In this document: one piece after another, positions 5,653 through 10,382 of the stretch
Layout: every line of letters begins with the position of its first letter
Numbering within the stretch: position 1 is the first letter of the stretch
Assembly (NCBI RefSeq): GCF_009916105.1
Contig: NZ_JAAAXQ010000022.1
Span: 1 to 39,723 of the forward strand
Direction of reading: 5' to 3'
Source: Streptomyces sp. GC420
Lineage (GTDB): Bacteria > Actinomycetota > Actinomycetes > Streptomycetales > Streptomycetaceae
DNA: 39,723 bases
Program-made: the position numbers and the translations under genes
Notes under the pieces: model-generated
The model's input: the letters and a program-made list of their open reading frames with translations, nothing else
What the model was told of the DNA's origin: nothing
The model's database searches: none

Positions 5653-5743
5653 CCGGCGCGGTGCCTGGGGCGGGCTGCTGGGTGCGGACGGCGGCCCGCC
5701 CCCGCAGCCGCCCCCTCCTGCCGAGATGCAGTACGTTCACCCC

Positions 5744-6568
5744 ATGTCCCAGTCCGCCAAGTCCACCCGTACGACACAGACGTCCGACGTCCCGGAGACC
5801 GCCGCGGGCGGCCGCGCCGCCGCCCAGCGGCTGAAGATGCGCCGCGAGCTGGCCACGGCGGCCATGGAACTCTTCGCCACCAAGGGGTACGAAGCCACCA
5901 CGGTCGACGAGATCGCCGCTGCGGCCGGTGTGGCCCGGCGGACCTTCTTCCGGCACTTCCGCTCCAAGGAAGAGGCGATCTTCCCCGACCACGACGACAC
6001 CCTCGTCAGGGCCGAGGCCGTGCTGAACGCCGCTCCTCCGCACGAGCACCCGCTGGACACGGTGTGCCGGGGTATCAAGGAAGTCATGCGGATGTACGCG
6101 GGCTCGCCCGCGGTGTCCGTCGCCCGCTACAGGCTGACCCGTGAGGTGCCCACGCTCCGCGAGGCGGAGATCGCCTCGGTGGCCCGCTACGAGCGGCTGT
6201 TCACCCGCTACCTGCTGGGCCACTTCGACGAGCACGAGCACCAGGTCGGCAATGACGACCCGCTGCTCGCCGAGGTGGCCGCCTCGGCCGTGGTCACGGC
6301 GCACAACCATGTGCTGCGCCGCTGGCTGCGCGCCGACGGGCAGGGCGACGTGGAGGCACAGCTGGACCACGCCTTCGCGATCGTGCGGAAGACCTTCGGC
6401 GCGGGGATCGGCGCGGGCCGCACCCAGGTCGCCGGCGGGCCGGAGCAGAACGGGGCCGGTGCCGCGGTGAGCACACGGTCCGAGGGCGAGGTCCTGGTGG
6501 CGGTGGCCCGTACGGACGCGCCGCTGCACGAGGTCATGCGGGCGATCGAGCAGGCGCTGAAGAAGTAG
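5744..6568 (+). CDS. TetR-family transcriptional regulator
   Basis: A 274-residue TetR-type repressor or activator. The N-terminal helix-turn-helix is clear (ELATAAMELFATKGYEATTV, then AGVARRTFFRHFRSKEEAI, about residues 35-75), followed by an all-helical ligand domain. The last ~60 residues are unusual: a Gly/Ala-rich linker and then a short predicted helix (APLHEVMRAIEQALKK). It lies between the hydroxybutyryl-CoA dehydrogenase gene and the ccr operon on the same strand, so control of the ethylmalonyl-CoA pathway is the obvious inference. A TetR protein, CcrR, is known to regulate ccr in Methylobacterium extorquens. The ATG at 5744 was chosen; ATG 5726 in the same frame is possible. It may be co-transcribed with the dehydrogenase gene, and a hairpin at 6660-6682 follows. 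Confidence 0.88.
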   Translation: MSQSAKSTRTTQTSDVPETAAGGRAAAQRLKMRRELATAAMELFATKGYEATTVDEIAAAAGVARRTFFRHFRSKEEAIFPDHDDTLVRAEAVLNAAPPHEHPLDTVCRGIKEVMRMYAGSPAVSVARYRLTREVPTLREAEIASVARYERLFTRYLLGHFDEHEHQVGNDDPLLAEVAASAVVTAHNHVLRRWLRADGQGDVEAQLDHAFAIVRKTFGAGIGAGRTQVAGGPEQNGAGAAVSTRSEGEVLVAVARTDAPLHEVMRAIEQALKK

Positions 6569-6659
6569 GCACGCCGGCGGCGGCCGCCCGGCCGCTCCCG
6601 GTCCCCTCCTCAGCTCCCGCTTCTCTCACATCTCATAAACAAACGGACACACAAAGCGG

Positions 6660-6682
6660 CGGCCGCCCCATCGGGGCGGCCG
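6660..6682 (+). terminator. Hairpin terminator after the TetR gene
   Basis: A perfect 10-bp stem (cggccgcccc / ggggcggccg) with a 3-base loop, followed by ttgttgct, lies about 90 bases after the tetR stop and upstream of the ccr promoter. This is a good intrinsic terminator by actinobacterial standards. Confidence 0.75.
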
Positions 6683-6741
6683 TTGTTGCTCACACGTGCC
6701 GCCGAGATGACAAGTGAGAGAAATTGTTGGCACCCAGTGTC

Positions 6742-6770
6742 TTGCTGAGTGGCACGCCGTGCCATACCTT
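6742..6770 (+). promoter_or_regulatory. Candidate ccr promoter with palindromic operator in the spacer
   Basis: A -35-like TTGCTG (6742-6747) and a -10-like TACCTT (6765-6770, fitting the streptomycete TAnnnT pattern) are separated by exactly 17 bases. A perfect 15-bp palindrome, TGGCAC-gcc-GTGCCA (6750-6764), fills that spacer. Another TGGCAC half-site lies 22 bases, two helical turns, upstream (6728-6733). The arrangement suggests a repressor that competes with RNA polymerase, most simply the TetR protein encoded just upstream. The promoter boxes are pattern matches only; the palindrome itself is certain. Confidence 0.6.
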
Positions 6771-6998
6771 GGGAGTGTCCGGGCGGCCGGCGTGCAGAGA
6801 TCACTCGTACGCCGGCTGTCCCAGCAAGCCGTATGTCCGTACGCGCTTGTTCGCCCGGGCGCCTGCGTCACAGGCAACCTTCCGCGCCACAACGCGCTGC
6901 CACAGCACCACCCCTCGCCGAACCGACGGCATACAGCAGCAACCACCCCGACGTCCCTCAAGCGTTCTCCCAACGCGCGCTTCGCCGGAGGCAACACC

Positions 6999-8360
6999 GT
7001 GAAGGAAATCCTGGACGCGATCCAGTCCCAGACTGCATCCAACAGCGGCTCAGCCGCGGTCACCGCCGCCGACTTCGCGGCGCTGCCCATCCCCGAGTCG
7101 TACCGCGCGGTGACCGTGCACAAGGACGAGACGGAGATGTTCTCCGGTCTCACCACCCGGGAGAAGGACCCCCGCAAGTCGCTGCACCTCGACGAGGTGC
7201 CCGTGCCCGAGCTGGGCCCCGGAGAGGCCCTGGTCGCCGTGATGGCCAGCTCGGTCAACTACAACTCGGTGTGGACCTCGATCTTCGAGCCCCTGCCGAC
7301 CTTCGGCTTCCTCGAGCGCTACGGCAAGCTCTCCGAGCTCACCAAGCGCCACGACCTGCCGTACCACATCATCGGCTCCGACCTCGCGGGCGTCGTCCTG
7401 CGCACCGGCCCCGGCGTCAACGCCTGGAAGCCCGGTGACGAGGTCGTCGCGCACTGCCTCTCCGTCGAGCTCGAGTCCTCCGACGGCCACAACGACACGA
7501 TGCTCGACCCCGAGCAGCGGATCTGGGGCTTCGAGACCAACTTCGGCGGCCTCGCCGAGATCGCCCTCGTCAAGTCCAACCAGCTCATGCCCAAGCCCGC
7601 CCACCTCAGCTGGGAGGAGGCGGCCGCCCCCGGCCTGGTCAACTCCACCGCGTACCGGCAGCTCGTCTCGCGCAACGGCGCCGGCATGAAGCAGGGCGAC
7701 AACGTGCTGATCTGGGGCGCCAGCGGCGGCCTCGGCAGCTACGCCACCCAGTTCGCGCTCGCGGGCGGCGCCAACCCGATCTGCGTCGTCTCCAGCGACC
7801 AGAAGGCGGACATCTGCCGGTCCATGGGCGCCGAGGCGATCATCGACCGCAACGCCGAGGACTACAAGTTCTGGAAGGACGAGCACACCCAGGACCCGAA
7901 GGAGTGGAAGCGCTTCGGCAAGCGCATCCGCGAGCTGACCGGCGGCGAGGACGTGGACATCGTCTTCGAGCACCCGGGGCGCGAGACCTTCGGCGCCAGC
8001 GTGTACGTCACCCGCAAGGGCGGCACCATCGTCACCTGCGCCTCGACGTCCGGCTACAACCACGAGTACGACAACCGCTACCTGTGGATGTCGCTGAAGC
8101 GGATCGTCGGCTCGCACTTCGCGAACTACCGCGAGGCGTGGGAGGCCAACCGCCTGGTCGCCAAGGGCAAGATCCACCCGACCCTGTCGAAGGTCTACTC
8201 CCTCGAGGACACCGGCCAGGCCGCGTACGACGTGCACCGCAACCTCCACCAGGGCAAGGTCGGCGTGCTCTGCCTCGCCCCGCAGGAGGGCCTGGGCGTG
8301 CGCGACCCCGAGATGCGCGCCAAGCACCTCGACGCCATCAACCGCTTCCGCAACGTCTGA
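6999..8360 (+). CDS. ccr: Crotonyl-CoA carboxylase/reductase
   Basis: Catalyses NADPH-dependent reductive carboxylation of crotonyl-CoA to (2S)-ethylmalonyl-CoA, the key step of the ethylmalonyl-CoA pathway and a source of the butyrate-derived polyketide extender unit. The 453-residue protein is a medium-chain dehydrogenase/reductase without zinc ligands, with the nucleotide-binding segment WGASGGLGSYATQFA near residue 240. All four residues that organise CO2 in Kitasatospora setae Ccr (Asn81, Phe170, Glu171, His365) are present at a constant offset of eight: N89, F178, E179 and H373. This separates it from ordinary enoyl reductases. GTG 6999 is preceded by ggagg with 7-base spacing; the in-frame sequence further upstream is not protein-like. 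It heads a five-gene operon, and the stop lies 9 bases before meaA. Confidence 0.97.
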   Translation: MKEILDAIQSQTASNSGSAAVTAADFAALPIPESYRAVTVHKDETEMFSGLTTREKDPRKSLHLDEVPVPELGPGEALVAVMASSVNYNSVWTSIFEPLPTFGFLERYGKLSELTKRHDLPYHIIGSDLAGVVLRTGPGVNAWKPGDEVVAHCLSVELESSDGHNDTMLDPEQRIWGFETNFGGLAEIALVKSNQLMPKPAHLSWEEAAAPGLVNSTAYRQLVSRNGAGMKQGDNVLIWGASGGLGSYATQFALAGGANPICVVSSDQKADICRSMGAEAIIDRNAEDYKFWKDEHTQDPKEWKRFGKRIRELTGGEDVDIVFEHPGRETFGASVYVTRKGGTIVTCASTSGYNHEYDNRYLWMSLKRIVGSHFANYREAWEANRLVAKGKIHPTLSKVYSLEDTGQAAYDVHRNLHQGKVGVLCLAPQEGLGVRDPEMRAKHLDAINRFRNV

Positions 8361-8369
8361 GGTCCCCCA

Positions 8370-10382
8370 ATGACGGAACGCAAGAAGGACCGTCCGTGGC
8401 TGATGCGGACGTATGCCGGACACTCGACGGCCGAGGCGTCCAACGAGCTGTACCGGCGCAACCTCGCCAAGGGGCAGACCGGCCTGTCGGTCGCGTTCGA
8501 CCTGCCCACGCAGACCGGCTACGACCCCGACCACATCCTCGCCCGCGGCGAGGTCGGCCGGGTCGGGGTCCCCGTCTCGCACCTGGGTGACATGCGGACG
8601 CTGTTCCGGGACATCCCCCTGGACCAGATGAACACCTCGATGACCATCAACGCCACGGCCATGTGGCTGCTGGCGCTCTACCAGGTGGTCGCCGAGGAGC
8701 AGGGCGCCGACGTCACCAGGCTCCAGGGGACGACGCAGAACGACATCGTCAAGGAGTACCTGTCGCGCGGGACGCACGTCTTCCCGCCCGGTCCTTCGCT
8801 GCGGCTGACCACCGACATGATCGCGTACACGGTCAACCACATCCCCAAGTGGAACCCGATCAACATCTGCAGCTACCACCTCCAGGAGGCGGGGGCGACC
8901 CCGGTCCAGGAGATCTCGTACGCCATGTCCACCGCCATCGCGGTGCTGGACGCGGTCCGGGACTCCGGCCAGGTGCCGCAGGAGCGGATGGGCGACGTCG
9001 TCGCCCGGATCTCCTTCTTCGTGAACGCGGGCGTCCGCTTCGTCGAGGAGATGTGCAAGATGCGGGCCTTCACCCGCATCTGGGACAAGGTGACGCGCGA
9101 GCGGTACGGCATCGAGGATCCCAAGCAGCGCCGCTTCCGCTACGGCGTCCAGGTCAACTCCCTCGGCCTGACCGAGGCGCAGCCGGAGAACAACGTCCAG
9201 CGGATCGTGCTGGAGATGCTGGCCGTCACACTGTCCAAGGACGCCCGGGCCCGCGCCGTGCAGCTGCCGGCCTGGAACGAGGCCCTGGGCCTGCCCAGGC
9301 CCTGGGACCAGCAGTGGTCGCTGCGCATCCAGCAGGTGCTGGCGCACGAGTCGGACCTGCTGGAGTACGAGGACATCTTCGCGGGCTCGCACGTCATCGA
9401 GGCCAAGGTCGAGGAACTCGTCACCCAGTCCCTGGCCGAGATGGAGCGCATCGAGGAGATGGGCGGCGCGATGGCGGCCGTCGAGTCCGGCTACCTGAAG
9501 TCCCAGCTGGTCTCCTCGCACGCCGAGCGCCGCGCGCGGATCGAGTCCGGCGAGGAGAAGATCGTCGGTGTGAACTGCTACGAGTCGACCGAGCCGAACC
9601 CGCTGACCGCCGATCTGGACACCGCGATCATGACGGTGGACCCGGCGAACGAGGCGAAGGTCGTCGCGAAGCTGCACGAGTGGCGCGACAACCGGGACGA
9701 GAGCCGTGCCCAGCAGTCCCTGGAGGCCCTGAAGGCCGCCGCCGCCGGGTCGGAGAACCTGATGGCCGCCACGCTGGAGTGCGCCCGCGCGGGTGTCACC
9801 ACCGGCGAATGGGCCTGGGCGCTGCGGGACGTCTTCGGCGAGTTCCGGGCCCCGACCGGTGTCTCCTCCGCGCCGGTCGCGGTGGCCGCCGAGGCCGGCA
9901 CCCCGCTGGCCGTGGTGCGCGAGAAGGTCGCCCGTACGGCCGAGGAGCTGGGCAGCGGCAAGCTGCGGCTGCTCGTCGGCAAGCCGGGCCTGGACGGGCA
10001 CTCCAACGGCGCCGAGCAGATCGCCGTACGGGCCAGGGACGCCGGCTTCGAGGTGATCTACCAGGGCATCCGGCTCACGCCCGAGCAGATCGTGAACGCG
10101 GCCCTCGCGGAGGACGTGCACTGCGTCGGTCTGTCCATCCTGTCCGGCTCGCACGCCGAGCTGGTGCCCGACGTGCTCGCCCGGCTCCGGGAGGCCGGGG
10201 CCGCCGACATCCCTGTGATCGTCGGTGGGATCATCCCGAACGCCGACGCGGCGGAACTGAGGCGTGCGGGTGTCGCCGCCGTCTTCACACCGAAGGACTT
10301 CGGTATCACGGAGATCATCGGCCGTATCGTCGACGAGATCCGCAACGCGAACAAGCTCGACCCTCTGGAGGTCCCCGCATGA
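8370..10382 (+). CDS. meaA: Ethylmalonyl-CoA mutase, B12-dependent
   Basis: Adenosylcobalamin-dependent carbon-skeleton mutase converting (2R)-ethylmalonyl-CoA to methylsuccinyl-CoA (Ecm/MeaA). The 670-residue single chain has a TIM-barrel acyl-CoA domain (from TYAGHSTAEASN near residue 14 to about 500) and a C-terminal B12-binding Rossmann domain. The latter carries the base-off signature KPGLDGHSNGAEQ with cobalt-binding His544, then GLSILSGSH and VIVGGIIP. The short N-terminus and lack of a second subunit fit the MeaA/Ecm branch rather than the MutAB methylmalonyl-CoA mutase. Its position between ccr and mcl makes the ethylmalonyl-CoA assignment strong. The stop overlaps the start of the next gene (ATGA), which implies translational coupling. 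Cobalamin is required; cobT and cobU genes lie 15 kb away in this window. Confidence 0.95.
   Translation: MTERKKDRPWLMRTYAGHSTAEASNELYRRNLAKGQTGLSVAFDLPTQTGYDPDHILARGEVGRVGVPVSHLGDMRTLFRDIPLDQMNTSMTINATAMWLLALYQVVAEEQGADVTRLQGTTQNDIVKEYLSRGTHVFPPGPSLRLTTDMIAYTVNHIPKWNPINICSYHLQEAGATPVQEISYAMSTAIAVLDAVRDSGQVPQERMGDVVARISFFVNAGVRFVEEMCKMRAFTRIWDKVTRERYGIEDPKQRRFRYGVQVNSLGLTEAQPENNVQRIVLEMLAVTLSKDARARAVQLPAWNEALGLPRPWDQQWSLRIQQVLAHESDLLEYEDIFAGSHVIEAKVEELVTQSLAEMERIEEMGGAMAAVESGYLKSQLVSSHAERRARIESGEEKIVGVNCYESTEPNPLTADLDTAIMTVDPANEAKVVAKLHEWRDNRDESRAQQSLEALKAAAAGSENLMAATLECARAGVTTGEWAWALRDVFGEFRAPTGVSSAPVAVAAEAGTPLAVVREKVARTAEELGSGKLRLLVGKPGLDGHSNGAEQIAVRARDAGFEVIYQGIRLTPEQIVNAALAEDVHCVGLSILSGSHAELVPDVLARLREAGAADIPVIVGGIIPNADAAELRRAGVAAVFTPKDFGITEIIGRIVDEIRNANKLDPLEVPA

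Follow-up and report, generated by a model that had tools for sequence, protein, structure and literature searches.

Conserved tandem palindromes at the ccr promoter of Streptomyces as a probable operator of the adjoining TetR-family regulator

MftR represses the mycofactocin genes of M. smegmatis from a single footprinted operator, for which the accessible part of the study gives the palindrome T-N2-GGCA-N5-TGCC-N2-A from an alignment of 83 species (PMC8728441). According to the same part of that source, the effectors of MftR are long-chain acyl-CoAs, short- and medium-chain acyl-CoAs do not release the protein, and single-base changes in the palindrome left binding intact (PMC8728441). Two TetR-family proteins of actinobacteria, AccR in S. 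avermitilis and PccD in Saccharopolyspora erythraea, repress short-chain acyl-CoA supply. Their operators, GTTAA-N6-TTAAC and (T/A)TGACG(G/C)TG(T/C)TG(T/A), respectively, differ from the palindrome TGGCAC-N3-GTGCCA found at ccr and, in the text available, their target genes are other than those of the ccr operon (PMC10933834). An AccR- or PccD-type operator at ccr was considered and rejected, since the palindrome is different. CcrR of Methylobacterium extorquens is a TetR-family protein that controls ccr, and is an activator by the title of its paper as given in reference lists; it can thus serve the repressor reading developed below as an analogy only. An earlier note on the present DNA had invoked TetR control of ccr in Methylobacterium, and was right about the family of CcrR, but the activator of that title is an analogy rather than evidence. 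For Streptomyces, no paper among the results listed in a search of the open literature, with subscription papers mostly outside its scope, names a direct regulator or an operator of the ccr operon. SCO6474, a TetR gene near SCO6475, is listed as unchanged on overexpression of SCO3201 in the accessible part of one study (PMC7324645).

The window analysed here, a stretch of 39,723 nucleotides from Streptomyces sp. GC420, carries on its forward strand a TetR-family regulator gene (5744..6568; 274 aa; N-terminal helix-turn-helix domain TetR_N, PF00440, 63.6 bits, cut-off 24), with a possible alternative in-frame ATG at 5726; its product is the proposed binder of the elements described below. On the same strand follow ccr, encoding crotonyl-CoA carboxylase/reductase (6999..8360; TIGR01751, 638 bits, cut-off 378.55), the first gene of the ethylmalonyl-CoA operon, and a gene of the methylmalonyl-CoA-mutase family (8370..10382) with MM_CoA_mutase and B12-binding domains, whose family and position fit an ethylmalonyl-CoA mutase (ecm/meaA). 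We also note a GC-rich inverted repeat at 6658-6690, GGCCGCCCC-atc-GGGGCGGCC, which is followed by a short T-rich stretch 3' of the TetR gene and is probably the terminator of that gene.

In front of ccr, the -35 element TTGCTG (6742..6747, forward strand) and the -10 element TACCTT (6765..6770, forward strand) are separated by 17 bases, and this spacer is filled by a perfect palindrome, the candidate proximal operator B (TGGCACGCCGTGCCA, 6750..6764, no strand), with the core GGCA-CGCCG-TGCC. The arrangement agrees with what had been described in the earlier note. The half-site that the note had placed two turns upstream does exist as an element 22 bp away, start to start, but is in fact a whole imperfect palindrome, the candidate distal operator A (TGGCACCCAGTGTCT, 6728..6742, no strand), which matches 10 of the 12 specified positions of TGGCAC-N3-GTGCCA and departs from the consensus at two. 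Site A and the -35 element overlap by one base, the T that closes the former and opens the latter. Ahead of the TetR gene, the window scan revealed no site within two mismatches, and autoregulation is thus not indicated.

A single palindrome of this kind is unremarkable within the window. A scan allowing up to two mismatches gave 2 matches against 2.76 expected in shuffles, and perfect 6-N3-6 inverted repeats of any sequence number 43, although the exact 12-letter TGGCAC-N3-GTGCCA is expected in only 0.004 copies from base composition; it is conservation that decides. The whole genome holds three exact copies, one at ccr, a second next to a TetR paralogue and a third upstream of ppdK. Conservation was followed in 110 ccr loci, which comprise the best 80 of 594 named Streptomyces loci and 30 from a search of 101 genomes of the genus, the window's own locus being counted among the latter; they contain 105 distinct upstream sequences, the window's included, because some strains occur in both sets. 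The tandem pattern, with site A as its first member, lies upstream of ccr in 110/110 loci, and for 104 of them the stored stretch also includes the TetR gene, which bears out the conservation and the co-occurrence that the earlier note had proposed to look for in other Streptomyces. The -35 element begins with TTG throughout (110/110) and varies beyond it, while the -10 element is most commonly TACGTT (99/110), the TACCTT of the window being shared by 9/110. Of 295 genomes of the genus, 276 gave the exact tandem pattern in a free genome search and none gave a control pattern, and ccr directly adjoins the pattern in all 42 genus loci stored from two pattern searches. The tandem palindromes at the ccr promoter are thus confirmed as a genuine conserved element.

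The 19 genomes without an exact match can be described individually. Eight carry the pattern with one mismatch and G120 with two; six have no ccr (G010, G037, G113, G135, G156 and G271); the sole ccr homologue of G186 is one of 79%; and in G008 and G050 ccr sits at a contig edge. In G112, an assembly of 810 contigs, ccr is present with two palindromes at an altered spacing of 42 bp, and no TetR orthologue was detected. In the ccr-less G010 (L335), site B, the -10 element and the start of the leader persist beside the TetR gene and site A has decayed. Within the 110 loci, position 13 in site A and position 3 in site B show the base combinations C/non-G (83), T/G (21), C/G (6) and T/non-G (0); T at the former position is found only with G at the latter, as if one inner half-site were kept weak. 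Compensation between the two positions was nevertheless set aside, since only four independent pairs fall on supported branches (two one way, none the other), too few changes for a test.

The association of the element with this TetR subfamily extends beyond the genus. In other genera of the family, the tandem pair and the TetR orthologue stand side by side at all 20 loci fetched, and a family-wide search, which shares two genomes with these 20, placed the orthologue beside the pair in 28 of 30 loci; the remaining two (L185 and L213) end short of the ccr promoter. Some of these other genera (L239-L247, L250) carry an extra 12/12 palindrome some 610-680 bp into the TetR coding region. A class-wide search recovered the pattern in 26 of 296 genomes, 25 of them in the genus, and in one of the 268 outside it (G475, of another family). 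There the pair, TGACACTAAGTGTCA-N7-TGACACTCCGTGTCA, lies 3' of a TetR homologue with 36% identity across 185 residues and before a gene for acyl-CoA dehydrogenase, not ccr, and the linker between its palindromes contains the -35-like TTGACG. In two more genomes of the same genus code the pair differs at one base (L155, L156), and a third (L157) has one site with one base changed. The occurrence of the pair beside a TetR homologue and away from ccr suggests that the operator follows TetR rather than ccr.

Loci of more distant TetR genes carry the motif less regularly. At loci of TetR paralogues (38-46% identical), a match of at least 11/12 is present in 13 of 19 and absent at that level in 6, a count that leaves out L215, which has no TetR gene (formerly 14/20). 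The corresponding figures are 4 of 20 for control TetR loci of ~32% identity, and 16 of 30 for loci of the other family, with the motif not found in the other 14. Two of the 20 control genes have the exact motif ~150 bp upstream, which suggests that distant relatives may share the specificity and that this specificity may be older than the division into paralogues and controls. In the window's own genome, a 44%-identical paralogue (G000:C5:223-966; L214:1-1053) is followed by a perfect palindrome from 64 bp past its stop codon and preceded by a copy with two mismatches. Judged by the translations, this paralogue has on one side the beginning of a gene resembling those of acyl-CoA dehydrogenases and on the other a gene possibly for a zinc-ribbon protein.

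Comparison with MftR reveals both likeness and difference. The core GGCA-N5-TGCC of the MftR operator is the same as that of site B, which the window TetR is predicted to bind, and the MftR model (TIGR03968) is the best NCBIfam match of this protein, at E 3e-27 and 95.4 bits, which is below the cut-off of 224.9. With the MftR C-terminal domain (PF17754), the window TetR scores 19.4 bits against a cut-off of 22.7, and the paralogue of the same genome 36.1. In contrast to the single operator of MftR, a tandem pair is present at ccr, and the proposed targets are ethylmalonyl-CoA genes rather than mycofactocin genes. The CoA-binding residue His68 of MftR is aligned with a threonine in the window TetR; the alignment is with 2RAE, whose histidine we infer to be His68 from the F-x-x-H spacing. 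Taken from sequence comparison, the most likely binder of the ccr palindromes would be the neighbouring TetR protein, the candidate named in the earlier note, and the candidacy is strengthened by homologous TetR genes that carry the same palindrome away from ccr.

The motif is found before other genes of acetate use as well. It lies upstream of ppdK at every one of 30 loci, with an exact match at 29 and none for the reversed motif used as a control (0/30); these loci are the best 30 of 60 matching genomes among 61. For the isocitrate lyase gene aceA, 27 of the 30 stored loci were used after the low-scoring L397-L399 had been dropped, and the motif precedes the gene in 25 (21 exact; control, 0/27), being absent at L390 and at the fragment L396. 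For the malate synthase A gene aceB, all but one (L442) of 30 loci have the motif upstream, 12 of them exactly, as compared with 1/30 for the control; these are the best 30 of 100 matching genomes among 101. At 27 of these 30 aceB loci (L414-L443), two sites of at least 10/12 stand 137-152 bp apart, and 140-143 bp apart in 23, the spacing having been looked at for 130-160 bp only; such paired palindromes could support DNA looping. Before ppdK and aceA the palindrome stands singly, at distances differing from that at ccr. In the window's own genome the site before aceB reaches only 10/12, and the aceA search gave no match. A gene divergent to aceA, with the palindrome between the two, is incomplete at the end of its stretch and has RamB as its best NCBIfam match (578 bits against a cut-off of 700). 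RamB, a regulator of acetate metabolism, is not known to be a TetR protein.

A strict search for the motif in 12 genomes gave 37 copies in a forward count against 10 for the control. Of the 28 copies that were traced, five belong to ccr or its relic, six to aceA, two to aceB and five to ppdK; four lie at a fabG-like gene, four in an intergenic region with a GntR gene, and two in the surroundings of TetR paralogues. Nine were not traced: seven without a clear gene (L321, L325, L332, L338, L406, L408 and L411), one beside a CoA-transferase family III gene (L402) and one beside DUF6986 (L412), the link of the last two to the motif being unclear. At the fabG-like reductase gene of four genomes, assigned by domains in L337, L403 and L407 and by promoter likeness in L409, the palindrome overlaps a TTGACA -35 element. 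In L322, L330, L331 and L333, a conserved palindrome lies between a GntR-family gene and another gene, beside a GATCGATCATCGATC repeat. The earlier view of the motif as a ccr operator is supported as regards the site at ccr, but the motif is not confined to it, as it precedes ppdK, aceA and aceB too. We consider these genes and ccr a candidate acetate-assimilation regulon.

From the sequence, its conservation and geometry, the association with one TetR subfamily and the presence of the motif at other genes, we infer binding, repression and a ligand, and the following reading appears to us probable, with good though not full confidence. The TetR-family product of the gene at 5744-6568 would sit as two dimers on the two 15-bp palindromes of the tandem operator, whose centres are 22 bp, or two helical turns, apart and which share the core GGCA-N5-TGCC; with site A abutting the -35 element and site B in the spacer, the bound protein would block RNA polymerase at the promoter of the ccr operon. 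A CoA ester or a related metabolite of C2/C4 metabolism would probably alter this binding, and the same regulator probably acts on ppdK, aceB and, where present, aceA. As both sites lie over the core promoter, occlusion is the simplest and likeliest reading, and a conserved site in the spacer fits the steric geometry that the earlier note had suggested. What has been described for S. tsukubaensis is compatible with this repression: in the text available, disruption of ccr1 silences the operon and leaves the strain unable to grow on acetate, and in a glucose/dextrin medium the transcript of ccr1 lies below quantification (PMC4606968). A transcript that is low on glucose/dextrin from an operon that is needed on acetate fits repression. 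Several points weigh against the reading: the commonness of single palindromes in the window, the indifference of MftR to single-base changes and to short- and medium-chain acyl-CoAs, the threonine aligned with His68, the valine response of S. albus described below, the paralogue and other-family loci that lack the motif at 11/12, the 10/12 site before aceB in the window's own genome, the case of G112, the exact motif near two control TetR genes and the lack of a site before the TetR gene.

The earlier note also suggested that a ligand would control the ethylmalonyl-CoA flux. In S. albus fed with valine, the accessible part of a study records crotonyl-CoA and other intermediates at levels up to more than 30-fold higher, together with a fall of a crotonyl-CoA carboxylase/reductase transcript (log2 -2.1), which may not be that of the operon's ccr (PMC8176718). 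The rise of crotonyl-CoA alongside the falling transcript makes a plain inducer role of crotonyl-CoA unlikely; crotonyl-CoA is possible as a co-repressor, or the ligand may be another compound.

The palindromes might instead be bound by a different regulator, for instance a TetR paralogue of the same subfamily, with the neighbouring TetR acting elsewhere, which we regard as unlikely. The perfect palindrome just 3' of the 44%-identical paralogue in the same genome suggests that more than one protein may read the motif, and G112 keeps ccr and palindromes where no TetR orthologue was detected. This reading has to be set against the constant company of the tandem pair and the TetR orthologue in the other genera (20/20), and against the genomes that have lost ccr. 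All six of these retain the ccr-type TetR at 73-79% identity, and five have the palindrome at aceA, G135 being without an exact copy. In four of them (G037, G113, G156 and G271), with TetR kept at 75-78% identity and the site kept at aceA, the next-best TetR match among those listed has E 2.7e-20 or weaker, as compared with ~1e-37 or better for the TetR paralogues of other genomes. As no other subfamily member is listed for these four genomes, the ccr-type TetR would be tied to aceA by elimination.

That the TetR protein activates ccr in the manner of CcrR, or bends the promoter, is less probable still. The title of the CcrR paper speaks for activation, and a Methylobacterium mutant in CcrR with half of the Ccr activity is described in the available text of a further study (PMC4207312). 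The variability of the -35 element beyond TTG would also suit an activated promoter. Both sites, however, lie over the core promoter rather than upstream of it, and a spacer of normal length does not need untwisting. MerR-type activation involves an over-long promoter spacer of 19-20 bp. With 17 bp already in place at ccr, MerR-like untwisting was rejected, and the suggestion in the earlier note that an activator untwists the promoter is not upheld. A reading of TGGCAC as a sigma-54 element was discarded too, as its spacing is wrong by what is generally known of such promoters. We give very little weight to the view that what is conserved here chiefly serves as a promoter for another sigma factor or as a site of a global regulator, with incidental symmetry. 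The -35 and -10 elements are indeed conserved along with the palindromes, and the ccr promoter is among the regions enriched in GlnR ChIP of S. venezuelae, without a GlnR motif in the part of the source available (PMC3087709). But the palindrome stands singly and at other distances before ppdK and aceA, and beside TetR homologues that have no ccr, which speaks against this view. Occlusion of the promoter by the neighbouring TetR protein is the reading that we retain as the most probable.

Downstream of this promoter, the ccr transcript would carry a conserved, structured 5' leader (6777..6875, forward strand), a candidate cis-regulatory RNA with stems P1-P4 and covariation in 44 sequences. The distance from the -10 element to the predicted start codon is 145-295 bases across the loci. 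The order of elements is P1, P2, a CTGTCCC that is invariant in the 44 aligned rows, a variable P3 and the hairpin P4, and the P4 motif GCCTGCGTCAC(C)AGG is present in the leader of 110/110 ccr loci. The structure was obtained on 44 selected longer leaders, namely 43 of the 80 named loci and the window, whose row ends at 6872, three bases short of P4; loci with leader stretches of at most 83 bases or 127-128 bases long were excluded, and further ones were omitted for the sake of a small set. In this alignment 93.8% of the cells pair, as compared with 20-47% when the partners are slid, and changes on both sides occur in 44 cells against 14.4 in shuffles; both statistics lean in favour of the structure, which itself came from this alignment. 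P1 and P4 are nearly invariant and little informative, and the covariation sits in P2 and P3. Judged by leader length, P2 is missing in at least nine of the 80 named loci (L009, L015, L022, L024, L050, L058, L060, L078 and L080), with the flanks kept, as if it had been cleanly lost. RNAalifold found no pair in a crude alignment of 104 leaders, and only a trivial pair (-0.46) in 27 diverse leaders, some of them without P2. A search of 6600-7100 against Rfam gave nothing better than two weak matches (E 0.7 and 0.99). The leader is best regarded as a candidate structured cis-regulatory RNA without an Rfam match.

A wider proposal, which we put forward tentatively and hold to be possible rather than probable, is that one acyl-CoA-sensing TetR protein would be the switch of C2 assimilation in Streptomyces and its relatives, acting on the acetate route that a given species has, be it the ethylmalonyl-CoA pathway (ccr) or the glyoxylate cycle (aceA/aceB), as well as on PEP formation (ppdK), and kept on the glyoxylate genes after the loss of ccr. 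The leader RNA of ccr would form a second layer, which may sense a metabolite or attenuate transcription. The ethylmalonyl-CoA pathway can supply CoA extender units for many Streptomyces polyketides, as stated in the accessible parts of two studies (PMC4606968, PMC8176718). If the proposal is true, a single TetR switch common to the two alternative routes of acetate use would be an engineering handle on extender supply, and a shared switch would explain why the regulator outlives ccr. One switch may thus govern acetate feeding in antibiotic-making Streptomyces.
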